A stretch of DNA of 64,000 nucleotides, taken from contig JAUXNX010000001.1 of assembly GCA_030682575.1 (NCBI GenBank), positions 62,001 through 126,000 on the forward strand, in the 5' to 3' direction. Below the pieces are notes generated by a model. It was not told the DNA's origin. It saw only the letters and a program-made list of their open reading frames with translations, and searched no databases. Position numbers and translations under genes: made by a program. Shown piece after piece: positions 30,412 through 64,000 of this stretch (position 1 is its first letter; every line of letters starts with the position of its first letter). The stretch is from Gammaproteobacteria bacterium (lineage in GTDB: Bacteria > Pseudomonadota > Gammaproteobacteria > Pseudomonadales > Pseudohongiellaceae).

Positions 30412-30488
<77 letters not shown>

Positions 30489-30580
30489 GGGGAAGTCGGA
30501 GCACCGTTTCGGAGAGAGCCAGTGTCCTGAAAGGCCAGTGACTTGAAAACAGTGATTTTAAAAATAGCGTCTCGGGAAAT

Positions 30581-30656
30581 TGGGGTGACCGATGGGGCTC
30601 GAACCCACGACAACCGGAGTCACAGTCCGGGGCTCTACCAACTGAGCTACGATCAC
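30581..30656 (-). tRNA. tRNA-His (anticodon GTG)
   Basis: 76 bases including CCA, with the extra G(-1) at 30657 opposite the C73 discriminator, the identity feature of tRNA-His. Acceptor GTGATCG pairs with CGGTCAC. The anticodon stem CCGGA/TCCGG encloses CTGTGAC, giving GTG. Confidence 0.96.
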
Positions 30657-30681
30657 CATTGAATCATTGTCTGTTTGGAGT

Positions 30682-30758
30682 TGGTCGGGGTAGAGAGATT
30701 CGAACTCCCGACATCCTGCTCCCAAAGCAGGCGCGCTACCAGACTGCGCTATACCCCG
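30682..30758 (-). tRNA. tRNA-Pro (anticodon TGG)
   Basis: 77 bases including CCA. It starts CGGGGTATAGCGC and ends CTACCCCGACCA. The anticodon loop TTTGGGA gives TGG. It is the first of three minus-strand tRNAs (Pro-His-Arg), probably one precursor transcript. Confidence 0.96.
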
Positions 30759-49827: not shown

Positions 49828-50326
49828 GATGGGCAGATTTATCAAACGCCAATCGCAGTGCCGCTATCAGCTGCCGTTCGTGTGGCGACAGCGCCCCTTC
49901 ATCCAGGTGGCGCCAATTGCGCTCATAGATTCCCAGTGCCTCGACAGGCGTCAATGCATCAACGCCATGGATCTGCCAGGCCAACTGCTTGAGCTGCGGA
50001 TAGTCATCCAGCCGAACTCGCGCGGGCAACCAGCCTTCATGAACATTGTCCCGGGACGCCAGGGAATACTCCGGAGATTTTTCCTGAAGCTGGAATGGAA
50101 TGGTCAGGGTCAATCCCAGTGCTGCAGCTGCAGACAACCAGGCCCCCATCGTGACCGAAGGCTCTCCTTTCTCGATTCTGTGCCAGGTGACTCTGGACAT
50201 GCCTGCCGATTCTGATGCGACTACAGCGCTCACGCCCAGCGCTTTGCGCCGGGCGCGGATCTGTGCGCCCAGTGAGGTGGCGGCTTCTATCAGGTTCGGA
50301 GTTATTTCTGGGGATTTGGCTGGCAC
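49820..50326 (-). CDS. XRE-family helix-turn-helix antitoxin-like protein
   Basis: About 168 residues from GTG 50326 with GAGG 8 bases before it; TTG 50347 is an alternative but would lie within a few bases of the predicted transcript start. The helix-turn-helix is LGAQIRARRKALGVSAVVASESAGMSRVTWHRIEKGEPSVTMGAWLSAAAALGL. The C-terminal part (LKQLAWQIHGVDALTPVEALGIYERNWRHLDEGALSPHERQLI) probably binds the toxin. It likely represses its own promoter. Confidence 0.82.
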   Translation of the reverse strand: MPAKSPEITPNLIEAATSLGAQIRARRKALGVSAVVASESAGMSRVTWHRIEKGEPSVTMGAWLSAAAALGLTLTIPFQLQEKSPEYSLASRDNVHEGWLPARVRLDDYPQLKQLAWQIHGVDALTPVEALGIYERNWRHLDEGALSPHERQLIAALRLAFDKSAHHV

Positions 50327-50356
50327 GGGAGTAAACCTCGCCCTCAAATGACACTC

Positions 50357-50384
50357 ATTCTATTCAAAGTCTTACATTTGTCAA
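50357..50384 (-). promoter_or_regulatory. Predicted promoter of the XRE/AbiEii pair
   Basis: On the minus strand, TTGACA (50384-50379, consensus -35) and TAGAAT (50362-50357, one mismatch to the -10 consensus) are spaced by 16 bases. Transcription would start near 50350, leaving a short leader before GTG 50326. Confidence 0.6.
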
Positions 50385-50409
50385 TAATGAGAAACTAATT
50401 TTCGTTTCA

Positions 50410-50429
50410 GACGTTTCTGCAGAAACGTC
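50410..50429. repeat. 20-bp perfect palindrome, copy 1 of 3
   Basis: GACGTTTCTGCAGAAACGTC, immediately downstream of the first GNAT gene's stop codon. The same core recurs at 53280-53297 and 57677-57696, each time just past the 3' end of a GNAT copy. Confidence 0.9.
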
Positions 50430-50433
50430 CAGG

Positions 50434-50946
50434 CTACCCGCCATGGCCGGACAAACTCAAAGTCATGCTCCTCGACATGACACTCGCCCCGTTCGGCATC
50501 ACTTTCACTTTGGCACTCCCGCCATCCTGAAACTCAAACGACTCGTACAAGCGAATCGCTGCGTGGTTGGTTTCCAGAACGTCAAGCTCCATGCGCTTGA
50601 AACCGTAGCGAGCCGAATCTTCGATTGCGATGCGCATCAGGTCCCGACCCAGGCCCTGTCGCCTGTGTGGCGCAGCGATCTGAATTCCGAGATAGCCGGA
50701 CAGATCCGCATCTTCACCGCTGATTCCGCACATCGTTCCAGGGAATACCTCAACGACACCCAAAAGTGCCTCTCCGGACACGGCAACGAAATTCGGCATT
50801 TTCTCTGCGACGACTTTACGGACAACGTCAAGAATTCGCTCTTGCGTTGGTGGCGCGTTGGGGATGTAGATGCCTTCGGAATAGGTTTGGGTCCATAGAT
50901 TGTGGAAGGCGGGGATGTCGGAGGTGAGGATTCTTCGGATTCGCAT
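50434..50946 (-). CDS. GNAT-family N-acetyltransferase, copy 1
   Basis: 170 residues. The acetyl-CoA-binding motif is IAAPHRRQGLGRDLMRIAIEDSARYGFKRMELDVLETNHAAIRLYESFEF, with the preceding strand YLGIQI. The N-terminus is RRILTSDIPAFHNLWTQTYSEG. Substrate unknown; such genes may modify antibiotics, proteins or small molecules. It shares about 87 percent of residues with the copy at 53306-53815, and both are followed by the same palindrome. Confidence 0.9.
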   Translation of the reverse strand: MRIRRILTSDIPAFHNLWTQTYSEGIYIPNAPPTQERILDVVRKVVAEKMPNFVAVSGEALLGVVEVFPGTMCGISGEDADLSGYLGIQIAAPHRRQGLGRDLMRIAIEDSARYGFKRMELDVLETNHAAIRLYESFEFQDGGSAKVKVMPNGASVMSRSMTLSLSGHGG

Positions 50947-51128
50947 GGGTTTTGTTCTACAAGCACATCCATGGAAAATCTATAGCAATTTATATGCAGG
51001 TATATCCAGTTTTGACTATACATATGTTTACATGCCAGCCCCACTCTGCGACAGAGCTCCTCGGAAAGACAACTTCCTGAGTTCTGACAAAGCAAGGTTA
51101 CCAATTTCTCACAGACGGTTCATAGGAC

Positions 51129-51183
51129 TTGCTTTTCTGACTCGCTCCAGTACCATCTGTCCCGTGTCCTAGGACAGGGGACA
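51129..51183 (+). promoter_or_regulatory. Promoter with nested palindromic operator
   Basis: A -35-like TTGCTT (51129-51134) and -10-like TACCAT (51151-51156) spaced by 16 bases precede a 26-bp near-perfect palindrome at 51158-51183. TGTCCC and GGGACA form the outer arms and TGTCCTAGGACA is the core, with one G/G mismatch on each side of the core. Four TGTCC half-sites sit at even spacing. The site covers the expected transcript start 19 bases before the winged-helix gene, so autorepression is likely. Confidence 0.6.
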
Positions 51184-51201
51184 CCTCATAAAGGCAAACC
51201 C

Positions 51202-51852
51202 ATGAAAAGTCAAGACCTCGGATTGATGCTTAAATTGATCTGTATGCAGATGCAGGAACAGGAGTCCAAAGCCTTCAGGAAAGCGTGGCCGCATGACTGG
51301 CAGGACTGGGATGGCGGGCTTGCTGCCAATCAACAGGAGCTCTGGGAGTGGCACAATCCGTACTCCACAACGGCACGTGCAGCGCAATACAGTGCCCGCT
51401 CCCTGGAGCACGAAACGGGAATCAGCAAGTCACAGATAAGTCTGTCACTCAACCGCTGCACCGAGACGGGCCTGATCCGGATCGACCGCAATCTGGGAAT
51501 TCCCAGAGTCAACGCCAGGAACCTGTACCACTTCGTTGTGCATGGCCTGCGCTATGTCTTTCCTGCCAGGGCGGGCTCCTTGACTCGCGGAATTGCCACC
51601 TCATTCGGAGCTCCTGTCCTGCAGGGCAAGCTACATAGCGCAGGAGAATTTCAACTCGTGTGGCCTGATGCTGCCGGAAAGACGATGGGGCTTGCAGTTG
51701 AACCACTCTTCAGGAGCACAACATATGCAGTGAGGCGTGATCCGCAGCTTTATGCCTTCCTGGCGCTGCTGGATGCCATAAGACTGGGACAGCCCCGTGA
51801 AAGCAAACTTGCAGCCGACCTGTTGAAGGAACAAATGGAGTCTGAGCAATGA
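51202..51852 (+). CDS. Winged-helix protein, antitoxin/regulator-like
   Basis: 216 residues. The middle holds a helix-turn-helix with wing (ARSLEHETGISKSQISLSLNRCTETGLIRID). The C-terminal half (VWPDAAGKTMGLAVEPLFRSTTYAVRRDPQLYAFLALLDAIRLGQPRESKLAADLL) is a pattern seen in small regulators partnered with nucleotidyltransferases. It overlaps the next gene by 4 bases (ATGA). The likely role is repression of the operator just upstream and neutralisation of the nucleotidyltransferase. Inference from architecture and context. Confidence 0.7.
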   Translation: MKSQDLGLMLKLICMQMQEQESKAFRKAWPHDWQDWDGGLAANQQELWEWHNPYSTTARAAQYSARSLEHETGISKSQISLSLNRCTETGLIRIDRNLGIPRVNARNLYHFVVHGLRYVFPARAGSLTRGIATSFGAPVLQGKLHSAGEFQLVWPDAAGKTMGLAVEPLFRSTTYAVRRDPQLYAFLALLDAIRLGQPRESKLAADLLKEQMESEQ

Positions 51853-52559
51853 CTCCTCTGGATATTCAAATCGACATGCTCAAATGCGTAGCGAGAGCAC
51901 TCGGCCCTGATCTGCGAACACAGATGACGTTTGTCGGTGGATGTACCACAGGGCTACTGATCACGGATGACTTTACCCGCGAACAGGTTCGCAGCACCGA
52001 TGATGTGGACCTGATCGTCCATGTTATCGGTTATATGGGCTTCATGCAGATGCAAGAGCGCCTCAAGGCGGCTGGCTTTCAGATTGGCCCGTCCCCTGCG
52101 GGCGAACCCATGCCGATCTGCGCCATGACACTCGGTGCCCTGAGGGTGGACTTCATGCCAGACGACGAGAACATTCTCGGCTTCAGTAATCGGTGGTACC
52201 GCCAGGCCGTCGAAACGGCGACGGACCATCCTCTTGACCACGATCTCATCATCAAACTCGTCCATCCTGTGTACTTTCTTGCGACCAAGCTCGAAGCCTA
52301 CAAGCACCGAGGCAAAGGCGATGCCTTGGAAAGCCGCGATATCGAAGACATTCTCAATGTGGTCGATGGCAGGCTGGAATTGTTGGATGAAGTCTCAGCA
52401 GGCGCTGCCGATATCCGCCGGTACATCAGCGGGGAGATCTTGACTCTCATCCAGAACGATGATTTTGCCTATGCCGTGCAGAGCCAGTCCCGAGGCGACG
52501 GAAAGCGCGAAACATTACTGTTTGAGCGGCTGGAAAGCCTGGCAAGAGTTCATCACTGA
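51849..52559 (+). CDS. Nucleotidyltransferase, toxin-like
   Basis: 236 residues. FVGGCTTGLLI and STDDVDLIV supply the GG and DxD elements of the nucleotidyltransferase fold, and LGALRVDFMPDD supplies a third acidic residue. KLEAYKHRGKGDALESRDIEDILNVVDGR is the helical C-terminal region typical of AbiEii-like enzymes. It starts within the stop of the winged-helix gene and ends overlapping the next start by one base (TGATG), giving strict coupling. A type IV-like toxin role is inferred. Confidence 0.75.
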   Translation: MTPLDIQIDMLKCVARALGPDLRTQMTFVGGCTTGLLITDDFTREQVRSTDDVDLIVHVIGYMGFMQMQERLKAAGFQIGPSPAGEPMPICAMTLGALRVDFMPDDENILGFSNRWYRQAVETATDHPLDHDLIIKLVHPVYFLATKLEAYKHRGKGDALESRDIEDILNVVDGRLELLDEVSAGAADIRRYISGEILTLIQNDDFAYAVQSQSRGDGKRETLLFERLESLARVHH

Positions 52560-53242
52560 TGCATATCCATTGGAGGAGCCGACAGGGCAGGCAACGCATC
52601 AGTAACAACGACGCTGCCGCGATCTTCGTCAGCCAAGTGTCCACCATCGCAATGGTTATTGATGTCGCAGAAACAGGGCCCAATGGTCAGGCCCTTGCGA
52701 AACATTGGGCAACCACAATCGTCCAGAAGTCCTTCGCTCTACCTCACCCCATCACGGCGGAGCAGATGGTTGCGATCATGCGTGACGAACAACGCAGTCT
52801 CAGACATCACTACCTGCATGAGGTGGCCAGTTACAGTCTTGTGTGCATTGATCACGAGACCAATCACCTGCACGTCCTCAGCACGGGGGATTGTCTGGCT
52901 GGCCTTGGCAACAACATCGAGATGCCGCAGTGGATAAGTCACCCGCAGAACCTTGACCATCAGTATTCTTCAATGGATTCAAACCGGCACGCCAACGGCC
53001 GTCATCTGATCACAAGTAGTCTGAACGCTCGTCGATTCGATATGCCCTACACCACAAGTCTGTCACTCCTCCCAGATGCCATGGTTCTCCTTTCGTCCGA
53101 CGGTTACTGTGTAGAACATCTACAATCGGGTGGCAATTTCGATGAGCTTGACGATGACGCAAGCCTTCTGACGTTGACGCCAGGCTCGCGAGGCGTCGAT
53201 TCTGATACTGACTGCGAGAATCTGTTTATCCTCACCCGATGA
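52559..53242 (+). CDS. PP2C-like serine/threonine phosphatase, divergent
   Basis: 227 residues. The layout follows PP2C: HWRSRQGRQRISNNDAAAIF (R..N-D motif), a VaDG-like strand AMVIDVAETGPNG in which the usual Gly after Asp is Val, LHVLSTGDCLAGL (GD-R-like strand), MVLLSSDGYCVEHL (the SDG motif) and a degenerate DN-like end (DTDCENLFILTR). Several metal-binding acidic residues remain, so activity is plausible but not certain. It is the third gene of the coupled winged-helix/nucleotidyltransferase operon, an unusual companion. Confidence 0.7.
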   Translation: MHIHWRSRQGRQRISNNDAAAIFVSQVSTIAMVIDVAETGPNGQALAKHWATTIVQKSFALPHPITAEQMVAIMRDEQRSLRHHYLHEVASYSLVCIDHETNHLHVLSTGDCLAGLGNNIEMPQWISHPQNLDHQYSSMDSNRHANGRHLITSSLNARRFDMPYTTSLSLLPDAMVLLSSDGYCVEHLQSGGNFDELDDDASLLTLTPGSRGVDSDTDCENLFILTR

Positions 53243-53279
53243 TTGAAGAGAAACTCCTACTCCCAACCTCTCCGCAAAA

Positions 53280-53297
53280 ACGTTTCTGCAGAAACGT
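53280..53297. repeat. Palindrome, copy 2 of 3
   Basis: ACGTTTCTGCAGAAACGT (18 bp; outer G/C pair lost on the left). It lies 8 bases past the stop of GNAT copy 2. Confidence 0.88.
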
Positions 53298-53305
53298 CCA
53301 ACTTA

Positions 53306-53815
53306 CTAGCAATATCCGGAAAAATTCAAAGTCATGATCCTCGACATGACACTCGCCCCGTTCGGCATCACTTTCACTTTGGCACTCCCGCCATCCTGAA
53401 ATCCGAACGACTCGTACAAGCGAATCGCTGTGTGATTGGTTTCCAGAACGTGAAGCTCGATGCACTTGAAACCGTAGCGAGCCGAATCTTCGATTGCGAT
53501 ATGCATCAGCTCCCGCCCCAGGCCCTGTCGCCTGTGTGGCGCAGCGATCTGAATTCCGAGATAGCCGGACAGATCCGCATCTTCACCGCTGATTCCGCAC
53601 ATTGTTCCCGGGAATACCTCAACGATGCCCAGCAGAGATTCTCCGGACACGGCGACGAAATTCGGCATTTGCTTTGCGACGACTTTGCGGACAACTTCAA
53701 GTATTCGCTCTTGTGATGGTGGCGCGTTGGGGATGTATATGCCTTCGGAATAGGTTTGGGTCCATAGAGCGTGGAAGGCGGGGATGTCGGAGGTGTGGAT
53801 TCTGCGGATGTGCAT
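53306..53815 (-). CDS. GNAT-family N-acetyltransferase, copy 2
   Basis: 169 residues, differing from copy 1 at about 22 positions. The acetyl-CoA motif APHRRQGLGRELMHIAIEDSARYGFKCIELHVLETNHTAIRLYESFGF is intact. Nucleotide similarity extends into the palindrome and a little beyond the start codon, showing that the gene and its downstream palindrome were duplicated together. Confidence 0.9.
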   Translation of the reverse strand: MHIRRIHTSDIPAFHALWTQTYSEGIYIPNAPPSQERILEVVRKVVAKQMPNFVAVSGESLLGIVEVFPGTMCGISGEDADLSGYLGIQIAAPHRRQGLGRELMHIAIEDSARYGFKCIELHVLETNHTAIRLYESFGFQDGGSAKVKVMPNGASVMSRIMTLNFSGYC

Positions 53816-53859
53816 GGGTTTTGTTCAACGCTCTTCGAATAAATAGCTGAATCAGAATA

Positions 53860-54915
53860 TCACCGCATTTCACCATCCCCCAGATCTTTCCCTAGCTCCG
53901 CTTCAATCTCCTCCACACTGGGCAAGCTGGACTTCAGTTCATCCGGCAGCGCTTGGGTAAGCTGGTATTCCGAAATGCCGATGGGCTTCTGCATATCGGA
54001 AAGAGCATATTCGGCGATCAGCCCGTCTTTCTGTTTGCAGAGCAACAGGCCGATGCTGGGGTTGTCCTCTGGGGATTTCACTTGGCGGTCTACCGCTGTC
54101 AGGTAGAAGTTGAGTTTGCCTGCATGCTCCGGAGTGAACTCAGCGGTTTTCAGCTCGATGACCACATAACAGCGCAGTTTCAGATGATAGAACAATAGAT
54201 CGAGATAGAAGTCCTTTTCTCCTACGACCAGCGGCACCTGCCGGCCGACATAGGCAAAGCCAGCGCCGAGTTCCAACAGGAAGCGGGTCATGTGCTGCAC
54301 CAGACCTTTCTCAAGTTCCCGCTCATTGTGGTTCGTAGTCAGACTGAGAAAATCGAACATGTAGGGGTCTTTCAGGCTTTGCTGCGCCAGATCGGACTGC
54401 ACCGGCGGCAGGGTCTGTTCGAAATTGGTGATGGCCTTGCCGTCACGCTGATAGAGGCCGCTCTCCATGTGATGGATCAGGACGTTGCGGCTCCAGCCAT
54501 GCTGTAGGGTTTGACGTATGTAAAACAGCGCTTCTTCATGGCTGTGGCTCTTGCGGGCAATGACAATATTGTGGCCCCACGGGATCTGGGTTATTTGCGA
54601 AACAGGTTGTTTCGCGATTGCTGGTCCCGACCAAAAAATAACCCAGTGTCTGATCAGCTCCAGGTTGCGTTTGGAGAACCCCTTGATCTCCGGAAATTCC
54701 CGAGTCAAATCCTCGCTGAGCTGAGCCAGAAAGCCCTCACCCCAGTGGCTGGCCTCTTGCTTCTCCACAATATCGCTGCCCAGTTGCCAGTAGAACTCCA
54801 GCAGCGTGCTGTTCACCCGGGTAGCGGCTTTGAGCTGAGCTTGCAGAAATGATTGCTTGAGTTCTTTCAGCCAGCTTTTGTAACTCTCATCTGTCTTGAT
54901 GGCCAACTTGTTCAC
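53860..54915 (-). CDS. PDDEXK nuclease domain protein, YhcG/DUF1016 family
   Basis: 351 residues. The N-terminal DUF1016 region (KQSFLQAQLKAATRVNSTLLEFYWQLGSDIVEKQEASHWGEGFLAQLSEDLTREFPEIKGFSKRNLELIRHW) is followed by a PDDEXK-type nuclease domain (GEKDFYLDLLFYHLKLRCYVVIELKTAEFTPEHAGKLNFYLTAV) with the D...ExK residues. GTG start with GGAGAGG 6 bases before it. Members often sit near restriction-modification and mobile elements; their function is unsettled. Confidence 0.9.
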   Translation of the reverse strand: MNKLAIKTDESYKSWLKELKQSFLQAQLKAATRVNSTLLEFYWQLGSDIVEKQEASHWGEGFLAQLSEDLTREFPEIKGFSKRNLELIRHWVIFWSGPAIAKQPVSQITQIPWGHNIVIARKSHSHEEALFYIRQTLQHGWSRNVLIHHMESGLYQRDGKAITNFEQTLPPVQSDLAQQSLKDPYMFDFLSLTTNHNERELEKGLVQHMTRFLLELGAGFAYVGRQVPLVVGEKDFYLDLLFYHLKLRCYVVIELKTAEFTPEHAGKLNFYLTAVDRQVKSPEDNPSIGLLLCKQKDGLIAEYALSDMQKPIGISEYQLTQALPDELKSSLPSVEEIEAELGKDLGDGEMR

Positions 54916-55229
54916 GGCATCCTCTCCGTTAATCTCGATGTCACTTGCCGACCTCGAGCATTCGATCTCGCTCCTTCTTGATTGTGGCGACGCTTATGCC
55001 CGTTGAGCGAAGTATCAATCGAGTATAGAAGGTATTTTGAGGTTGGCTGTGTACCAGATCAACACAACCCCATGTTCCAATCTGATACAGCACATCAATC
55101 TTTCCCCGCGCCAGAATTCACAACATCCTGAATTCGTTGACGGTTTATGCTTGGTACATATGTTGCTCCTACCTTGACAGTCACCGGCTTCGCTTGCAGT
55201 CTGACCCAAAAGAAAAAGAGGCATACACC
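54916..55229. other. Intergenic region with a possible small remnant frame
   Basis: 314 bases. On the minus strand a 50-codon frame (GTG 55093 to TGA 54941) reads coherently (VLYQIGTWGCVDLV... LRSTGISVATIKKERDRMLE), as if the tail of a helix-turn-helix protein, but no family was recognised and it lacks a ribosome site. It may be a remnant left when the YhcG gene was inserted. The right end carries the AAGAGG ribosome site of the next gene. Confidence 0.3.
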
Positions 55230-57617
55230 TTGTACACGCTGAGGCAACTCTGGAGGCAGTTCCAGGCGGACAAGCTGTTCGCGCTGATCAATATCGCCGG
55301 ATTGACGCTCTCCATCAGTTGTTATCTGATCATCTTCATCTACGTCGGCTTCCACTATTCTTTCGACAAATTTCACCCCGACTCGGAACGGATCTATCGC
55401 CTTCTGAGCGTGAACACCAATCAGCCCGAAACAAGCGTCACTGGAATGGTCACCAATGCGCTGCTCCCCGCCATTCGCGCCGAGATTCCCGAAGTGGAGC
55501 TGGCCACCCGCTTTCAGCCCACAATTGACCTCACGGTCCGGGTAGACGACAAAGTCCACTTTCTCGACATGGCCTACCTCGTCGATGCGGATTTTTTCCG
55601 GATGTTCAATTTTCCGATCACTGCCGGTGTCGGTGGAGAGGCGATGGATGAACCCAATACGCTCATTCTGTCGCAATCATTTGCAGAAGAGTTATTCGGT
55701 GAAGAAGATCCCATAGGAAAAGTGGTACGTCTGTTCGACCGACGCGACATGCGCGTTGTCGGCATCATGGCGGACATGCCGGCAAACTCCCATCTGCAGG
55801 TGGACGCCGTAGCCTCGCTACGCCCCGATCCGGCGTGGTCCGAGGAAACAGCCGCCAATCTGGACTCATGGCTGAATATTTCGATGCATGCGTACTTCAA
55901 GCTCGCACCAGGGAGCGATCCGGAGATCGCGGAACAGAAGATCCAACAGCTGATGGCTGAACGGGAAGAGTCCGGATATATCTCTGCCGTCATACAGCCG
56001 CTGCACGACGCGCATCTGTATTCTTCTCATATCGCCTTCGGCGATGTAAGTGATGTCAGAGAGGACTATCGCAAGATCTTCATCCTGATTGCCATCGCCA
56101 TCCTTTTGCTGGCAATAGCCGTGTGCAATTACATCAACCTGACAACAGCCAAGTCTGTGGCCCGTACCCGCGAGATCGGTATACGCAAGGTCGTCGGGGC
56201 AAATCAGTCGCAACTGATAAAGCAATTCCTGGCCGAGTCATGCTGTTTGATCCTGGTCGCATGTCTGCTCAGCTTCGTGGTGATTGACCTGATTTCACCG
56301 TGGATGACAGTGGCGTCCATCGAAAACCCGATTCCTTATCTTTTCTCGAACCCCGGATTGATGGTGATCGCATTCGCTCTCCTCACAATCACCGGTCTGA
56401 TAGCGGGTTTATATCCCGCTCTCGTTTTGACCTCCCAGAAGACTGTCAGGGCAATCAAGGGAAACTACTCGAAATCAAAGAGGGGCAAACTGATCAGAAG
56501 AAGTCTGGTTGTTTTTCAATTCTTCATGTCGACAACAGTGATCATCTGGTTGCTCGCAATCAACGGCCAGATCGCTTTCCTGCAGAACCAATCGCTTGGC
56601 TTCAATCCCGAAGGCATCATTAACATGAGCTTCCCGGATCCATCCATGAGTGAGAGATACCCGGCCCTGGCCAGTGAACTGGAAGGGATTCCAGAAATCG
56701 AGTCCTTTACCAGCACAAGCTTCATGCCTGCCGGGGGCGGCTGGGGCAAGACAGGATTCGCGCCAATGGAAGGCCCTGTCGCAGGCGTCGAGACTGTCAT
56801 GAACCATGGCGCAGTGGATGCATCCTTCATCGAGACACTGCAGATGCGCATTATTCTGGGTGAAGATTTCAACGAAAATCTTGCAGACACTACGCTGAAT
56901 CCGGTCATTCTCAACGAGGCTGCGGTACGCGCCTTTCAGTGGGCAGACTCGCCCATCAACAAGACGCTTCGCAGTACCAGCGGTAGAGACTACGTTGTCG
57001 TGGGGGTAATAGAGCAGATTCATTTTGACGGGCTCATCAACGCGATTGAGCCTTTGATACTGCGGTACTCAACCATTCCCGGGTTCGTTGTCGCCAGCCG
57101 CTTCTCACCAAACACGATGGCAACCGGACTCGTCAAGTTGGAGCAGGCCTGGACGCAAATCTATCCTGAGTATCCCTTCACGTATCGGGTTTTGACGGAC
57201 AACGTTGCAGGGCTCCTGGAGGACGAGGTTGGGTTCGCCACGCAGCTTTTCCAGTTTGCCCTGATCGCGATCTTCATCGCTTGTCTGGGTTTGTACGGCC
57301 ATGCGACCTTCTCAGCCAATCAGGAAGCAAAGAACGTGGGCATTCACAAAGTCTTCGGCGCTTCCACCATTGATATCCTCAAGTTCATCAGCAAGGAGTA
57401 CGGCCTGCTTCTGCTGATCGCCAACGCGATCGCGTGGCCGGCTGGCTTTCTGCTGGTAGAACTCTGGCTATCCGGTTTTGCAGAACGGATTGATGCAGGA
57501 ATTGCGATCTATCTGCAGTCGATGCTGATTGTTGTGGTGGTCGCAGCGGTGACAATTGGCTCCAAGATCTGGGAAGTAGTTCGAGCGAATCCGGTTGAGG
57601 TGTTGAGGGATGAGTAA
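55230..57617 (+). CDS. MacB/FtsX-type ABC permease without ATPase
   Basis: About 795 residues from TTG 55230, which has AAGAGG 8 bases before it. Two FtsX-like halves: an N-terminal helix (ALINIAGLTLSISCYLIIFIYV), a large periplasmic domain, three helices (IFILIAIAILLLAIAVCNYINLTTAKSVARTREIGIRKVVGA, ...), then the same pattern again ending LVELWLSGF...IWEVVRANPVEVLRDE. REIGIRKVVGA and NVGIHKVFGA are the family's repeated coupling motifs. No ATP-binding gene is adjacent, so it depends on an ATPase elsewhere or is a stranded unit. Confidence 0.88.
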   Translation: MYTLRQLWRQFQADKLFALINIAGLTLSISCYLIIFIYVGFHYSFDKFHPDSERIYRLLSVNTNQPETSVTGMVTNALLPAIRAEIPEVELATRFQPTIDLTVRVDDKVHFLDMAYLVDADFFRMFNFPITAGVGGEAMDEPNTLILSQSFAEELFGEEDPIGKVVRLFDRRDMRVVGIMADMPANSHLQVDAVASLRPDPAWSEETAANLDSWLNISMHAYFKLAPGSDPEIAEQKIQQLMAEREESGYISAVIQPLHDAHLYSSHIAFGDVSDVREDYRKIFILIAIAILLLAIAVCNYINLTTAKSVARTREIGIRKVVGANQSQLIKQFLAESCCLILVACLLSFVVIDLISPWMTVASIENPIPYLFSNPGLMVIAFALLTITGLIAGLYPALVLTSQKTVRAIKGNYSKSKRGKLIRRSLVVFQFFMSTTVIIWLLAINGQIAFLQNQSLGFNPEGIINMSFPDPSMSERYPALASELEGIPEIESFTSTSFMPAGGGWGKTGFAPMEGPVAGVETVMNHGAVDASFIETLQMRIILGEDFNENLADTTLNPVILNEAAVRAFQWADSPINKTLRSTSGRDYVVVGVIEQIHFDGLINAIEPLILRYSTIPGFVVASRFSPNTMATGLVKLEQAWTQIYPEYPFTYRVLTDNVAGLLEDEVGFATQLFQFALIAIFIACLGLYGHATFSANQEAKNVGIHKVFGASTIDILKFISKEYGLLLLIANAIAWPAGFLLVELWLSGFAERIDAGIAIYLQSMLIVVVVAAVTIGSKIWEVVRANPVEVLRDE

Positions 57618-57676
57618 ACTGTTCTCCGTTATGGACGCGAAAAAAGTGAATGGGTTCAGTGCCGCATCGTAATTCA

Positions 57677-57696
57677 GACGTTTCTGCAGAAACGTC
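57677..57696. repeat. 20-bp perfect palindrome, copy 3 of 3
   Basis: GACGTTTCTGCAGAAACGTC, identical to copy 1, next to a decayed third GNAT copy. Confidence 0.9.
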
Positions 57697-57699
57697 CGG

Positions 57700-58020
57700 G
57701 CTTACTCCTACGCTTGAAACCTTAGAGAGCCGAATCTTCGATTGCGATACGCATCAGCTCCCGACCCAGGCCCTGTCGCCAGTGTGGCGCAGCGATCTTA
57801 ATTCTGAGATAGCCGGACAGATCCGCATCTTCACCGCTGATTCCACACATTGTTCCAGGGATACCTCGACGATGCCTAGAAGAGCTTCTCCGGTCACGGC
57901 ACCGAAACTCGGCATTTGCTCTGCAACGACTTTACGGAAACCTCAAGAATTCGCTCTTGCTTTGGTGGCGTATTGGGGATGTAAACGCCTCCGGCATAGG
58001 TTTCGGGCCACAGAGCGCAA
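57700..58020 (-). pseudogene. Decayed third GNAT copy
   Basis: On the minus strand from 58020 the sequence translates to ALWPETYAGGVYIPNTPPKQ and onward, matching residue 16 of the intact copies, then frameshifts and stops appear. The C-terminal third (from about the LDVLETNH region) is deleted so that the palindrome follows directly. The first 15 codons are missing where the methyltransferase gene begins to abut. This is a clear remnant. Confidence 0.85.
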
Positions 58021-58022
58021 TT

Positions 58023-59153
58023 TCATCTTGACTCAAGAACTAGAATAAGTTCGCTGATGTCTTTACGGGCATCGCGGCGTACGCCGTTACCGCCCATTGT
58101 GCTGAATCTAGATTTAACAACTGTTTCTTGAACGCGAAAATAATTCGAGGCAATCTCTTGAACTGTCCCTCCGCTTAGTCCATTACTGCACTCCCCCGCA
58201 GGGAAAGTAAATATTACTTTGCACCCTTGCGAAGCCAAGCTTGAGAGCAATGAATCAATAGCGGCGACGGACTCAGACTTCCTGCTAAACGCCGAGACGG
58301 GTCTCTCGTCTGAGGGCGGATATCTGCCAACACCACTTACTTCACTTGCGTAACCCCGCGAGATAGTTTCGAGCACATGATAGAATCTGCTGTAATGAAC
58401 TCCCGAATAAGGAGGATCAAGAAAAACCAAATCAGACTCATCCAATTTATCAGCAATATCCAATGCGTCGCTCACACGCACGTCACCCTGAACAGTTGCG
58501 TGTTTGTTGCAGATCGTCTCCAGCGCCCGACGGATATAAAGCTCTGGATCTTTTGACCAAGATTCAACAATAAACCTGATAGCAGTATTCGTTGGCTGAA
58601 AAGGCTGCGCTGTATGTCCTGGTGATGCAGCACATTGACTTGCGGCAATAGTAATTGCCGCCAAACACACTATTCTTTCCGATTTATTTTCCGGCAGAGA
58701 TTGCAAAAGCCTATCGAAGATAACTGCTTGTGCTGGGCTGTAGTAGTAGCCGCCGTATGAGTTGAAGATCACTCCTGCTTTCGTCTCAGAACTTAATTGT
58801 CGGCTATCCAGCACCCAAGCAACAGCGTCCTTAGCACCTTCGTGAATTGAAACAGCTCTTTTGTACAATGAACGCGAGCGAGCTCTTTTAGACTCAGGTT
58901 TCAACCACCTATCTGAAATTCTGTCCGGGTCAATCTTTCGCGTTCGACAAATCACGGAACCAGCGAGCGTGGTAGCATAGCTCTGCAAGTCAACTGCCAG
59001 CACTTTCTTTTGACAATTTATTGCAGAAAACCAGGAAACACTGCCGGCGCCACAGAATAGATCAACCACTCTAGCGCGATCCATGCAGTGAGTAGTAAGT
59101 AGCTCACCCAAGCCATTTTGCAACATCGTGCGCTTTGAGCCCATATACTTCAT
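58023..59153 (-). CDS. D12-class N6-adenine DNA methyltransferase
   Basis: About 376 residues from ATG 59153. Starts KYMGSKRTMLQNGLGELL, as Dam-type enzymes do. SAM motif I is VVDLFCGAGSVSWFSA and catalytic motif IV is DLVFLDPPYSGVHYSRFYHVLE (DPPY). A central helical region sits between them as in D12 enzymes. It overlaps the stop of the upstream gene by 4 bases (ATGA), so the three cassette genes are coupled. The sequence is clearly richer in A+T than the core genes, suggesting transfer. Confidence 0.9.
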   Translation of the reverse strand: MKYMGSKRTMLQNGLGELLTTHCMDRARVVDLFCGAGSVSWFSAINCQKKVLAVDLQSYATTLAGSVICRTRKIDPDRISDRWLKPESKRARSRSLYKRAVSIHEGAKDAVAWVLDSRQLSSETKAGVIFNSYGGYYYSPAQAVIFDRLLQSLPENKSERIVCLAAITIAASQCAASPGHTAQPFQPTNTAIRFIVESWSKDPELYIRRALETICNKHATVQGDVRVSDALDIADKLDESDLVFLDPPYSGVHYSRFYHVLETISRGYASEVSGVGRYPPSDERPVSAFSRKSESVAAIDSLLSSLASQGCKVIFTFPAGECSNGLSGGTVQEIASNYFRVQETVVKSRFSTMGGNGVRRDARKDISELILVLESR

Positions 59154-60511
59154 AGACCGACACCCCACAAACCAATTCGCTCAGTAGTACAAATTAAACT
59201 GAGAGAAAATGAATCCCGCTGCCACGAATTGAAGTGACTTGAAGGCTCTTGGGTAAGGTTATTCGCTCTAATATTTGAAATAGCATCTTCTACATCTTTC
59301 CACAGATCAATCATTTGAAACTCGTCATCCATATCATCACTGATTCCAGCATTCCTATTTATGGGCTCCCACCAGAATCTAAGATCAGCGCTTTCAAAAG
59401 TAGGTAAGTTCTTGAAAAGCATTTCACAACTGCCTGAAGCAACCCTTAGCAACATAAAAGCTCTCGCGAGCATTTGCTTGTTATGAGACGGGAGAGAAGG
59501 GTTTGGTTTACATCCAGCCTCATCAATTATGGTTTTTTTAGCTGAAGTCGTTTCCAACAAAAATTTTCTCCACTCCTCCGCAGGACTATCGCTAGGAGTT
59601 ACTTGATGCAACAACGCGTCAATAGTCCTTCCTAATAAGTCATTCTTACCCAACTCAGTCTTACCGTGAACTGCAACTAAAGTAGTGATAATACTCTTTC
59701 GAATAAGAATCTTATCAAGGTGTTCAAACCGAGCGCTTGATCTCGGCTCAGCTAACTCCCACAGATCATTTACAAAGGATATTGCTTGGGCGCTGGTTTC
59801 CGAGTTGGGCAACACGAATGCAGAAGGGTTGTAGCTAGCTTCATTTCTCAATTCTCGATCTTCAATCATTTGTGCAATATCTACCCCCCACTGAGTGAGC
59901 CACTTAGCGGCGATTGCCGTATGTGTCGCACTGGAGTTTCCTCCTAAGTGACGTAACCACTCCTGCAGAGGTAGGTCTCCTGCAACCACCAGTCGGTGCA
60001 GCGTCTTAACCGCCGCCGGGGATTTAGCCCAGATTGAGAACGCATCCCAAACAAACTGATGTGTGCCAATAGCAGGATCGGGGTGTCTTTGACTTATTAG
60101 ATTGCACTTTCGGTTCTTATCGATAACGTAATGCTGGTTATTGAAGGCCCCAATACCTTCCGATGCCAGAATTGCCATTGTTGCCCGCAATTCAGCGTAA
60201 TAGGCCAAGTGTCGAGTAGCTCCCACGTCCCCGCGCAGATAGGCGTGAATAGCCTTACCAATATATCGCCAACCATCAATGCAGTGAGTGACCGCTGAAC
60301 CAGCGATATACGTACCCATATCATTATTCAGTGGTGGCAGCCCAGCTTTCACTCTGGAGCGAATTCTTACGGCACACTTTTCACGATATATATTTCCAGT
60401 TCGCAACCATAGACCGGCTTTCCAATTGTTCTGAAGGAGTTGAAAATGGTGCTCAACTGCCGCTCTATCAGCATGAGTAAGTATGTGTTGATTCTTAGAG
60501 TTAAGCTTCAT
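59150..60511 (-). CDS. Unknown protein between the DGQHR and methyltransferase genes
   Basis: 453 residues; no family was recognised. It is largely helical, with no signal peptide or clear membrane helix. Recurrent features are a tryptophan-rich segment (NNWKAGLWLRTGNIYREK, CIDGWRYIGKAIHAYLRGD) and an acidic segment (ISDDMDDEFQMIDLWKDVEDAI). The start overlaps the stop of the DGQHR gene by 4 bases and its stop overlaps the methyltransferase by 4 bases. Operon logic suggests it works with both, but no function is assigned. Confidence 0.75.
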   Translation of the reverse strand: MKLNSKNQHILTHADRAAVEHHFQLLQNNWKAGLWLRTGNIYREKCAVRIRSRVKAGLPPLNNDMGTYIAGSAVTHCIDGWRYIGKAIHAYLRGDVGATRHLAYYAELRATMAILASEGIGAFNNQHYVIDKNRKCNLISQRHPDPAIGTHQFVWDAFSIWAKSPAAVKTLHRLVVAGDLPLQEWLRHLGGNSSATHTAIAAKWLTQWGVDIAQMIEDRELRNEASYNPSAFVLPNSETSAQAISFVNDLWELAEPRSSARFEHLDKILIRKSIITTLVAVHGKTELGKNDLLGRTIDALLHQVTPSDSPAEEWRKFLLETTSAKKTIIDEAGCKPNPSLPSHNKQMLARAFMLLRVASGSCEMLFKNLPTFESADLRFWWEPINRNAGISDDMDDEFQMIDLWKDVEDAISNIRANNLTQEPSSHFNSWQRDSFSLSLICTTERIGLWGVGL

Positions 60512-62028
60512 GCATAGCCCAGACTTTTCAGAACTAACTTAGCACTGGACCCCACCAAGTTATCTTCCTGAGATAAGAAAGCTAGGAGTTGCCTCCGTAA
60601 CTCTTTATATCCACCGCTTCCCCTGAAGGCCGCCTTCTTCAGTCTGTCGTCTTCAGATAACCCCGGCGCATCAGACGCTCGCCAGTCGAACTCGGCCAAT
60701 TGCTCTGTTACTTGCTCAATAAATTCACCTATTTGAGACTTCTTGAGACTCTTAAACGAGGATTTTATTTTCTCAATATCATCACTATTTTCCTCCGTGT
60801 CTCCCCATTCAGCGAGTCCTAATTCGTCAGCATTGACATAACAAAGATCGTTGATCGCATGGAGGAATACTCTTATGCCTTGATCTTGATTGATTAGTGT
60901 CTTACTTCCGTAGAATGCTGCATCCAGCCCCTCTTCTACATCCCCAGATTCTCTTAACGGATTCATCCATGCATGTTTGCTATTGGTTATATTTCTCTTC
61001 AGAGAATCACCCGCAAATATCACGAACGATGCTTGTTGAGTCCTGCTCCACGGCAAAGTTTGTTTGTGACTCCCGACTGGTGCTCCAAACAGTCCACCGA
61101 TTGTCACACGCTGCCCTTCCCAGCTCTTAATCAACGATGCCAAAAGAGATCTCACCCATGCAGCTTGAGAAACCATCCGCCCTCGCTGACCGGACTCCCC
61201 CAGCATGTTAATACGATGGAACCAAGGACTTGTGTTGGAGGACCAAAGCAAATCTACTATCTCTTGAGCTCGTGTCTCCCGATAGATCACATGTCCTTCG
61301 AATTTTTCCAACCAATCTTCGGTACGTAATAGGGGATACAAATCGAATGCCAGACTGGCATTGATTTTTTTTGGCTTAATATTGATGGTGTAGAAAAGAT
61401 AAGCCTGCCAGCTAATGTCTAGTCCGTTGAAAGCGACAACGGGTAGATGGTAGTTCTCCGAGGCATTCTCTTCGTCAAATGCCCACAGTCTGTGCTGACC
61501 GTCAATCACCTCCAGTGGTGGGATTTCGGCGGCCCGCCAATCCTTCCCAGTAAAATTCTCGGGAAAATGGATTCTAGATTGACCGTCATGTCCAACAAGA
61601 GTTACCAAGTCATGTTCTTCTACTTTTTTTCCACGTCTCTTATCATCTTTACCAAGAATATTTACAACCACTGCAGTTGGGAGCCAACCCGGCTTTTTTA
61701 GATCATCATATTTACCAGATTCTCGCTTTGCTTGACTGAGATCAGACCACGGATATCCATATTTGATGAAACTAGCAATCTCGTGTGAACGGTCTGGGTC
61801 ATGTCTGCGCTGTATTCCGTGCTCATCCCGACCTTTTTCTCTACCCTTGATACTACGCGGGTACACACCGCATAAGGCTCTTAGTTCTGATGCAGGGATG
61901 CTAAATAAGTAGAAAGCTCGTTCCGGCTGCCTTCTAAAATTATCGCTGTCCCAAGTTACATCGTTCCACTCATCGAGCCACTGGGGAACCTTGATTGCGG
62001 GCACTGACTTATCCACTTTAGATTTCAT
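60508..62028 (-). CDS. DGQHR domain protein, DndB/DpdB-like
   Basis: About 506 residues from ATG 62028, preceded by GGAGAG. An ATG at 62052 has no ribosome site. The defining motif PPLEVIDGQHRLWAFDEE lies near residue 175, as in DndB (a regulator of DNA phosphorothioation) and in DNA-deazaguanine clusters. LPVVAFNGLDISWQAYLFYTINIKPKKINASLAFDLYPLL is the following conserved region. It is the first gene of the three-gene cassette. Here it is paired with an adenine methyltransferase rather than Dnd or Dpd genes. Confidence 0.85.
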   Translation of the reverse strand: MKSKVDKSVPAIKVPQWLDEWNDVTWDSDNFRRQPERAFYLFSIPASELRALCGVYPRSIKGREKGRDEHGIQRRHDPDRSHEIASFIKYGYPWSDLSQAKRESGKYDDLKKPGWLPTAVVVNILGKDDKRRGKKVEEHDLVTLVGHDGQSRIHFPENFTGKDWRAAEIPPLEVIDGQHRLWAFDEENASENYHLPVVAFNGLDISWQAYLFYTINIKPKKINASLAFDLYPLLRTEDWLEKFEGHVIYRETRAQEIVDLLWSSNTSPWFHRINMLGESGQRGRMVSQAAWVRSLLASLIKSWEGQRVTIGGLFGAPVGSHKQTLPWSRTQQASFVIFAGDSLKRNITNSKHAWMNPLRESGDVEEGLDAAFYGSKTLINQDQGIRVFLHAINDLCYVNADELGLAEWGDTEENSDDIEKIKSSFKSLKKSQIGEFIEQVTEQLAEFDWRASDAPGLSEDDRLKKAAFRGSGGYKELRRQLLAFLSQEDNLVGSSAKLVLKSLGYA

Positions 62029-62458
62029 AATTTCTCTCCATGCTGAGTCCATTTAGCATATCCACAATTCAACTTTAGTTGCCTTCACTTCTCTTCCCCA
62101 CTGCGGCCAATCAAATCTAACTGGATTTGCCCCTACTTCGTTTAATCAATTGGTCTTGAGGTCGTTAGTTAATGCCCTCAAAAACAGGTATAGGGAGAAC
62201 TTAGAATAGATGATAAAAGTAAGAATTGCTCAATTGACTGCTGCATCTCTTCGAGGCCAGGCTGTACTAGACCTAGTTATTTTTCGCCTACCAAGGATCC
62301 TGTCCTGCTACTGGACGTATATGGTATTCGCTGGCAATTGGATAATACATCCCGTCCGACCTCACGATATCTCGAACGTGCGAAGCAAATTTTTCAGATT
62401 AGATCGTTGATTCTGATCAATAACCTGTCGCGATGTGCACCATTCGTACCCAGACTTT
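62029..62458. other. Intergenic boundary region of the cassette
   Basis: 430 bases, richer in A+T than the core DNA, between the cassette and pepN. A 66-codon plus-strand frame (62210-62410) and others exist but none has a good start site or recognisable sequence. The promoter for the DGQHR operon should lie at the left; no elements are clear. Confidence 0.4.
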
Positions 62459-64000
62459 TTACCTCAAACTCTTCCCCACCACCTCCCCCACATCCTTCGA
62501 CAACCCATCCTTCGCACTAACCCTCTCCAACGCCCCCCGCATCATCCCCTGCCTCCCCTCATCATACTTCCTCCACCGGGTCAGCGGAGTCACCAACCGC
62601 GAAGCAATCTGCGGATTCAACCCATCCAGCTCAATAATCCTGTCCGCCAGGAACCCATACCCCGCCCCCGACTTGTCATGAAACTGCACCGGATTCCCAT
62701 TGGCAAACGCGCTGATCAGCGCCCTCACCTTGTTCGGGTTCTTGATGTCGAAGGCTGGATGCTCCATCAACTTCGTTACACGGTCAAGCGTTCCCGGCAA
62801 GGTGCTGGTGGCCTGGACGCTGAACCACTGGTCGACGACCAGGGCTTCGTGCTGCCACTTGGCGTAGAAAGACTGCAGTGCCTGCTGGCGCAGGGGCTCG
62901 GCTTGTGGCATTTCGCTGTTGACGAACAGGCGCAGCGCGGCGCTGACGTCGGTCATGTTGTCGGCCTGCTCGTACTGTGCGTGGCAGGTCTGCAGCCATT
63001 GCGGGTCTTCGGTGCGCATCAGGTAGCTGAGGCTGACGTTCTTCAGGGCGCGGCGCGCGATGCCTGCCGCGTCTGCGGCGTAGGGTTCGGGTGTGGAGTT
63101 CATGTCGTACAGTGCTGCGAACTTGCTTGCCAGTGCTCTGGCCAGTGTGTTCGAAGCAAACTCTCGCACCGCATGAATCCCGGCCACGTCGATCTCGTCG
63201 GCGAGTTCGCTGAGGTAGGCTTCGGTGGGCAGGGTCAGGAGCTGGGCGACGGCTTCCTTGTCCTGTTCTTCGTCGCGCTCGGCCTTGTTGATGCTCATCT
63301 GCAGGATGCTGTCGAATGCGTCGATGACGCCCTGCTCCAGCGTGAGTTCGCGATTGGCCTGGTAGTCCTTGAGCAGGTCCTGCAGCACTTCCACGCCGAG
63401 CTGCTGCGCGGCGTTCCAGCGGTTGAAGCCGTCGGTGTCGTGTGCCATCAGGAAGAGCAGTTCTTCGCGTGTGTAGGCGACCTGGAGTTTTAGAGGTGCG
63501 GAGAAGCCGCGCAGCAACGAGGGCACTGGTGCGTGTTCGATGCCGGTGAAGACAAAGTGGTGCACCTTGTCCCTCACATCCAGCACACGCTCGTTGCGCG
63601 CTTCGCCAGGGTCTTCACCTTCGAGCAGCAGCGGCAGTTCGTTGCCATCGCGGTCCAGCAGCGCCATGCGCAGCGGAATGTGGAACGGTTGCTTGATGGG
63701 TTGTTCTGGCGTGGGCGGGCAGCTCTGTTCCACTGTCAGTTGATAGGTGGAGTATGAAGGGTCGAACTGGCCCCTTGCGCGCAGCACCGGTGTGCCGGCC
63801 TGGGAGTACCAGCGGCGGAACTGGGTGAGGTCGATGCTTCCTGCTTCTTCCATCGCTTTGACGAAGTCTTCCGTGGTGACGGCCTGGCCGTCGTGGCGTT
63901 TGAAGTAGAGATCGCTTCCTTTGCGGAAACGTTCTGGCCCGATCAGTTCGCGGATCATGCGCACGACTTCGGCGCCCTTCTCGTAGATGGTGACGGTGTA
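62459..64000 (-). CDS. pepN: Aminopeptidase N, C-terminal part
   Basis: 514 codons, open at the right edge. The frame at the edge begins YTVTIYEKGAEVVRMI, the segment with the transition-state-stabilising tyrosine of M1 metallopeptidases, so the HEXXH zinc site lies outside. The rest (FRRWYSQAGTPVLRA, LLFLMAHDTDGFNRWNAAQQL, and the C-terminal helical array to GALERVSAKDGLSKDVGEVVG) matches gammaproteobacterial PepN, which degrades cytoplasmic peptides from the N-terminus. Its GC-rich coding marks the return of core genome. Confidence 0.95.
   Translation of the reverse strand, partial: YTVTIYEKGAEVVRMIRELIGPERFRKGSDLYFKRHDGQAVTTEDFVKAMEEAGSIDLTQFRRWYSQAGTPVLRARGQFDPSYSTYQLTVEQSCPPTPEQPIKQPFHIPLRMALLDRDGNELPLLLEGEDPGEARNERVLDVRDKVHHFVFTGIEHAPVPSLLRGFSAPLKLQVAYTREELLFLMAHDTDGFNRWNAAQQLGVEVLQDLLKDYQANRELTLEQGVIDAFDSILQMSINKAERDEEQDKEAVAQLLTLPTEAYLSELADEIDVAGIHAVREFASNTLARALASKFAALYDMNSTPEPYAADAAGIARRALKNVSLSYLMRTEDPQWLQTCHAQYEQADNMTDVSAALRLFVNSEMPQAEPLRQQALQSFYAKWQHEALVVDQWFSVQATSTLPGTLDRVTKLMEHPAFDIKNPNKVRALISAFANGNPVQFHDKSGAGYGFLADRIIELDGLNPQIASRLVTPLTRWRKYDEGRQGMMRGALERVSAKDGLSKDVGEVVGKSLR

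Follow-up and report, generated by a model that had tools for sequence, protein, structure and literature searches.

The locus described here raises the question of what a DGQHR-domain protein does when it is found outside the Dnd and Dpd systems. It lies in a 64,000-nucleotide stretch of the genome of a Gammaproteobacteria bacterium (contig JAUXNX010000001.1, positions 62,001 to 126,000; assembly GCA_030682575.1), hereafter the window. Three consecutive genes of its minus strand encode the DGQHR protein (D), a protein of no named family (X) and a putative D12-class adenine methylase (M), with an ATGA overlap at each of the two junctions (Table 1). A preliminary description of the sequence had reported this trio with its four-base overlaps, and all three open reading frames (ORFs) and both junctions are present. 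Comparison with other genomes shows that D and X form a conserved pair, next to which lies a methylase that can be exchanged. A defined two-protein core with a removable methylase offers a direct handle on the function of DGQHR proteins in contexts other than Dnd and Dpd.

Table 1. Positions of the cassette genes and their features in the window
Feature	Position	Strand	Remarks
D, DGQHR-domain protein, 514 residues	60508..62052	minus	ATG at 62052; alternative in-frame ATG 62028
D, N-terminal half, ParB/Srx-like (predicted)	~residues 45-250		QR 81-82, DGQHR 184-188, FxxxN 220-224
X, helical protein (predicted), no named family, 453 residues	59150..60511	minus	
M, D12-class N6-adenine DNA methyltransferase (by homology), 376 residues, DPPY motif	58023..59153	minus	ATG at 59153
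ATGA overlap D/X	60508..60511	minus	from sequence
ATGA overlap X/M	59150..59153	minus	from sequence

The D-X pair and its methylases

X alone matched 2 of 369 genomes of its class, including that of the window, and five plasmid records (one from Rhizobium, four from Zymomonas). The two plasmid records inspected have a DGQHR gene, followed by an X gene and an adenine methylase gene. Single-sequence scans of genome and viral contigs with X returned no relative. An alignment of three D proteins retrieved 69 loci, 59 on genome contigs and 10 on viral ones. Adding the copy of the window, L002 (found in the class search) and both plasmid loci gives a set of 73 loci, in which X is present in 71 and D in 72. 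The exceptions are L002, which is devoid of D, L058, which ends at a contig edge, and L060, where D is truncated. Among the 69 loci drawn by D, X is found downstream on the same strand in 67; another ORF is inserted between D and X in L072, and both are fragments in L063. A search of viral contigs with X yielded 13 loci, 8 on contigs already found by D and 5 that are new and divergent (L104-L108), all 13 of which contain D. The trio had been expected to co-occur elsewhere, and a genome-neighbourhood search found it on plasmids, genome contigs and viral contigs. The arrangement is not due to chance, since the same order of D and X is seen in relatives whose D is mostly 40-56% identical.

Partner methylases were sought with four profiles within 3 kilobases (kb) of D or X in the 73 loci. 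A long D12 methylase is present in 41 (window and L002 counted), Dam-like D12 enzymes, which are shorter, occur in 16, and PF01555 (N6_N4) enzymes, located upstream of D, in 5; one of these three kinds is thus at hand in 62 loci. Both D12 groups, though divergent, fall in one Pfam family. One representative each of the Dam-like, PF01555 and MT-A70 kinds was checked against Pfam. MT-A70 enzymes, found in three loci (L026, L056 and L057), were set aside as doubtful partners because each of these loci has a broken D and because the L057 enzyme adjoins a BglII-type endonuclease. The two genes occupy L057:555-1918, with the MT-A70 gene first and the endonuclease gene (PF09195, E = 8.2e-44) second, and lie upstream of X and a split D. 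The four profiles detected no methylase within 3 kb in 8 of the 73 loci. Two of these (L058 and L060) are without X, and in three (L007, L031 and L036) contig ends limit the stretch available; the others, L010, L020 and L021, are considered below. A D12 methylase is encoded somewhere in 7 of 8 genomes searched (those of the six loci with X but no methylase, L007, L010, L020, L021, L031 and L036, and of L026 and L056), versus 4 of 14 control genomes. The enzymes from the genomes of L007, L010, L020 and L031 match the Dam-like profile.

In quick trees of D (66 rows) and D+X (65 rows), the partner label requires 13 changes over five labels. When only the three clear methylase kinds are considered (58 rows), 6 changes are required on the D+X tree. 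The distances between D proteins and between X proteins are correlated (Spearman 0.65 over 65 loci, with none of 999 permutations as high). In the 39 loci with a long M, the correlation is 0.67 for D-X, 0.45 for X-M and 0.31 for D-M. Since the distances agree better between D and X, and since the kind of partner changes on the tree, D-X is a stable core and the methylase an exchangeable partner.

Features of the three proteins

D matches the DGQHR model TIGR03187 with 81.9 bits (cut-off 58.85, E = 6.5e-23), and residues D184, G185, Q186, H187 and R188 are invariant in an alignment of 58 rows. With 24.6 bits, it stays under the cut-off of 29.1 bits of the Pfam DndB family PF14072, and its match to the DpdB model NF041060 is weak (E = 0.0011, 17.9 bits, cut-off 300). 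A fold search with a structure model of D returned ParB, PadC and Noc in the top ten rows; the N-terminal half is predicted to adopt a ParB-like fold and the C-terminal half is helical. In addition to the DGQHR domain, D shares with DndB (PF14072) and DGQHR proteins (TIGR03187) the QR pair and the FxxxN sequence, given as motifs of DGQHR proteins in passages of PMC4619093. Excerpts of PMC12704722 report binding of ATP and GTP by a bacterial DndB-like protein. A sequence search of the PDB with D found no convincing relative, and no nuclease family was recognised in D with Pfam, PADLOC, NCBIfam or PHROG. The start of D had been placed at 62028, where an in-frame ATG is indeed present, but the ATG upstream at 62052 is equally plausible. 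Relatives leave the choice unsettled, as matches reaching the N-terminus of D begin between residues 3 and 17.

X has no match at E ≤ 1 in Pfam, PADLOC and NCBIfam, and weak ones alone in PHROG (best E = 0.002). Unrelated weak matches of scattered single members of the X family (best E = 0.0013) were taken as chance. The 453-residue protein was previously considered unrecognised, and it matched no known restriction enzyme in the libraries searched, PHROG included. No convincing relative was found in the PDB by sequence. Proteins of the X type form a conserved family of about 450 residues, nameless in these libraries, with a defined set of residues that are invariant in a 61-row alignment (A4): H76, W81, H101, Y104, Y105, L108, R109, T150, H151, D211, R222, Y227, W251 and R350. 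A confident model was obtained by structure prediction, and it is helical.

M matches PF02086 with 57.5 bits (cut-off 22, E = 2.2e-15) and the PADLOC type II methyltransferase model PDLC03257 (E = 1.5e-18) over residues 4-379 of the 381-residue mechanical ORF, which opens at GTG 59168, upstream of the ATG retained in Table 1. Residues D246, P247, P248 and Y249 are invariant in 39 rows. A PDB search with the single M sequence found no relative, and the M profile gave a weak match to Dam (E = 5e-5). Distant relatives of the long D12 enzymes are encoded on viral contigs at L117:7908-9143, L118:7944-10687 and L119:7920-9290, with no D or X in the fetched stretches; two M-like genes stand side by side in L118.

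The cassette can be compared with several known systems. It had been described as lacking dnd and dpd genes, and the window's genome, labelled 100% complete, contains no match to dndC (TIGR03183), with no control genome above the cut-off either. Likewise, there is no dpdA above the cut-off of 200 bits; one partial match reaches 18.9 bits, no control genome exceeds the cut-off, and E. coli among the controls also matches below it. The cassette therefore bears little resemblance to a conventional Dnd or Dpd system: D scores under the PF14072 threshold, it resembles DpdB weakly, and its partners are X and a methylase. The type IV enzymes GmrSD and BrxU combine a ParB/Srx-type DUF262 domain with an HNH domain, and the cassette differs from them by its link to a DNA methylase; neither DUF262 nor HNH (DUF1524) has a Pfam match in D, X or M at E ≤ 1. 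With type II restriction-modification systems having a D12/Dam-type methylase, it shares an adjacent methylase that matches type II models, but it has two conserved proteins instead of a recognisable restriction endonuclease. The closest precedent found is the HEPN family MAE_28990, which a table of a 2013 survey (PMC3710099) places in an operon with ParB nuclease and DNA methylase genes. By this description, the reported make-up of ParB, HEPN and methylase resembles that of the cassette. X differs from this family in that none of 61 members matches a HEPN Pfam family at E ≤ 0.05, and in that it has Rx4Y where the HEPN motif is defined as Rx4-6H in the same source. A limited search of the open-access literature found no description of a D-X-M cassette; excerpts of PMC8432527 concern other restriction-modification systems of Zymomonas ZM4.

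Possible functions of the cassette

As a best inference from sequence, the cassette is linked to DNA modification and probably directed against phages. The reading that we favour, and to which we give about an even chance, is that of a mobile defence cassette resembling restriction-modification, with M marking self, D sensing and X acting as the effector. M, whose enzyme class is assigned by homology, would methylate adenine at a specific site of the host DNA. D, with its ParB/Srx-like half, would act as a nucleotide-dependent sensor or clamp inspecting incoming DNA, and X would be a partner or effector licensed by D when the mark of M is absent. Self-marking by M and a restricting role of the D-X arm are thus both suppositions of this scheme, as is the resemblance of X to HEPN proteins. 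A HEPN-like nuclease or nucleic-acid-binding effector appears more likely for X than a classical PD-(D/E)XK restriction enzyme, because the protein is helical, because it has an invariant Rx4Y motif and invariant histidines, and because the region that is its best, weak, structural neighbour holds a HEPN domain. If D-X does restrict, the repeated exchange of methylases raises the question of how one restricting core serves distinct methylases. A more speculative extension, which we regard as rather unlikely, would be an immune cassette of a new class gated by methylation, where D is a ParB-type nucleotide switch that is freed without the self mark and triggers a divergent HEPN-like X, the methylase being a plug-in replaced repeatedly. 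In this extension, given the 6 changes of kind, D-X would read methylation through its partner or at a shared site, rather than perform a fixed site-specific cleavage.

Several observations weigh against the defence cassette. The fold evidence for X is weak, even for the best row of the search, which is the Roquin ROQ/HEPN region. L010, L020 and L021 have an intact D-X with no methylase at hand by the four profiles; these seem to be genuine exceptions, although they may have a methylase of a different kind. The phages collection has no match for X or D. The preliminary proposal of a distinct DNA-modification or anti-phage system agrees with the association with modification and with the unlikeness to ordinary Dnd and Dpd systems, but its defence part received no support from neighbouring genes. 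In a scan for defence islands, PADLOC was searched at E ≤ 1e-15 with 95 of the 174 near neighbours and 94 of the 184 far ones. Matches were obtained to 16 families for the near neighbours and to 58 for the far ones (best 25 of 58 listed), with at most 2 members each among the families listed. Near neighbours are no richer in PADLOC matches than far ones, and there is no gradient of defence genes.

Other functions can be proposed for the same proteins. Excerpts of PMC12839542 present DpdB, a DGQHR relative, as a ParB-like ATPase that powers the insertion of the base in Dpd, and also state that some Dpd clusters can do without it. By analogy, D might use a nucleotide and help X to install or enlarge a base modification at the adenine that M methylates, or next to it (hypermodification). 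The invariant H, D, R and Y residues of X are a set fit for an enzyme, and some copies are borne by viral contigs, where self-protection would also be plausible. We nevertheless consider such a modification machine unlikely, as distinct kinds of methylase, including PF01555, are harder to fit to one chemistry, and X matches no known modification-enzyme family. A regulatory role may be drawn from DndB, reported in passages of PMC10853773 and PMC12704722 as an ATP-dependent repressor of dnd. D would then be a regulator, and D-X would tune a nearby orphan methylase within a module of epigenetic regulation or element maintenance devoid of restriction. This would suit the compactness of the cassette, as D, X and M overlap or almost abut in most loci with measured gaps. 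It is made quite improbable by the five loci with a methylase of another family upstream of D, by the methylase of L107 being on the opposite strand, and by the size of the apparatus: a pair of large conserved proteins, in closer step with one another than with the methylase, would be heavy machinery for repression.

The remaining alternative is an RNA version of the favoured scheme, with D-X as a toxin-like, RNA-directed effector held by methylation and a HEPN-type ribonuclease as the executioner of an abortive defence. The weak structural neighbour of X named above fits this role, and the motif R222-N-x-x-S-Y227 keeps the spacing and a polar neighbour of the HEPN Rx4-6H. HEPN families without the motif histidine but retaining another N-terminal one are described in excerpts of PMC3710099, and H101 and H151 are invariant in X. 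However, the catalytic histidine is replaced by tyrosine in 74 of 74 rows, and HEPN Pfam families are not detected in 61 members of the X family at E ≤ 0.05. The X profile compared with one sequence of YaaC, which we take to be HEPN-like, gave a probability of 0.25%. A search of two genomes with the PF18737 profile was uninformative, as it found no match anywhere. An RNA-directed executioner is given a low probability, and the defence cassette with a self-marking methylase is retained as the preferred interpretation.

Distribution and genomic surroundings

The cassette is rare but widespread. A search of 57 relatives found D in a single genome, that of the window; the 13 other genomes of its genus gave no match. 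In a phylum sample of 398 genomes, X and D (E ≤ 1e-30) each matched two genomes, the same ones for both proteins, and D is split in two frames in one of them. The loci span many phyla and include one archaeal record, plasmids and viral contigs; many come from metagenome-assembled genomes, so that single taxonomic assignments may be wrong. In the viral contig L108, the trio adjoins genes for a P2-type portal, terminase and capsid. P2-like prophages harbour defence genes in this vicinity. An integrase gene neighbours D-X and a Dam-like gene in the viral contig L107, and the contig of L106 also has a Prim-Pol gene; viral contigs of this collection can be prophages. Two 2-kb blocks cover the cassette, with a guanine-cytosine (GC) content of 46.0 and 46.5%, versus 52.6 and 56.8% in adjacent blocks. 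The distribution is patchy, as expected of a mobile cassette, and mobility is suggested by the low GC content, the patchy presence in relatives and the viral contigs bearing the trio. An empty site was not seen when 7 regions from relatives were compared by blastn with positions 50000-64000 of the window; matches were confined to the gene at 62459-63964, which presumably encodes an aminopeptidase-like protein.

Clustering of the neighbours brought out no fourth gene of the cassette: no further gene recurs in a constant position, and the most frequent of the other clusters occurs in 8 loci at differing positions. In L013 and L022, M is followed by a DUF4357 protein. On the Rhizobium plasmid pRt932 (L003:12484-13995), a 503-residue protein is encoded after the methylase in the same direction; it has no Pfam match at E ≤ 0.001 and clusters with no other neighbour. 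Directly upstream of the methylase-less D-X of L021 (790-3395) are PRTase-CE/wHTH and reverse transcriptase genes, perhaps a retron- or DRT-like neighbour. In the window itself, three clustered transfer RNA genes (Arg, His and Pro) are located on the minus strand at 30412-30758.

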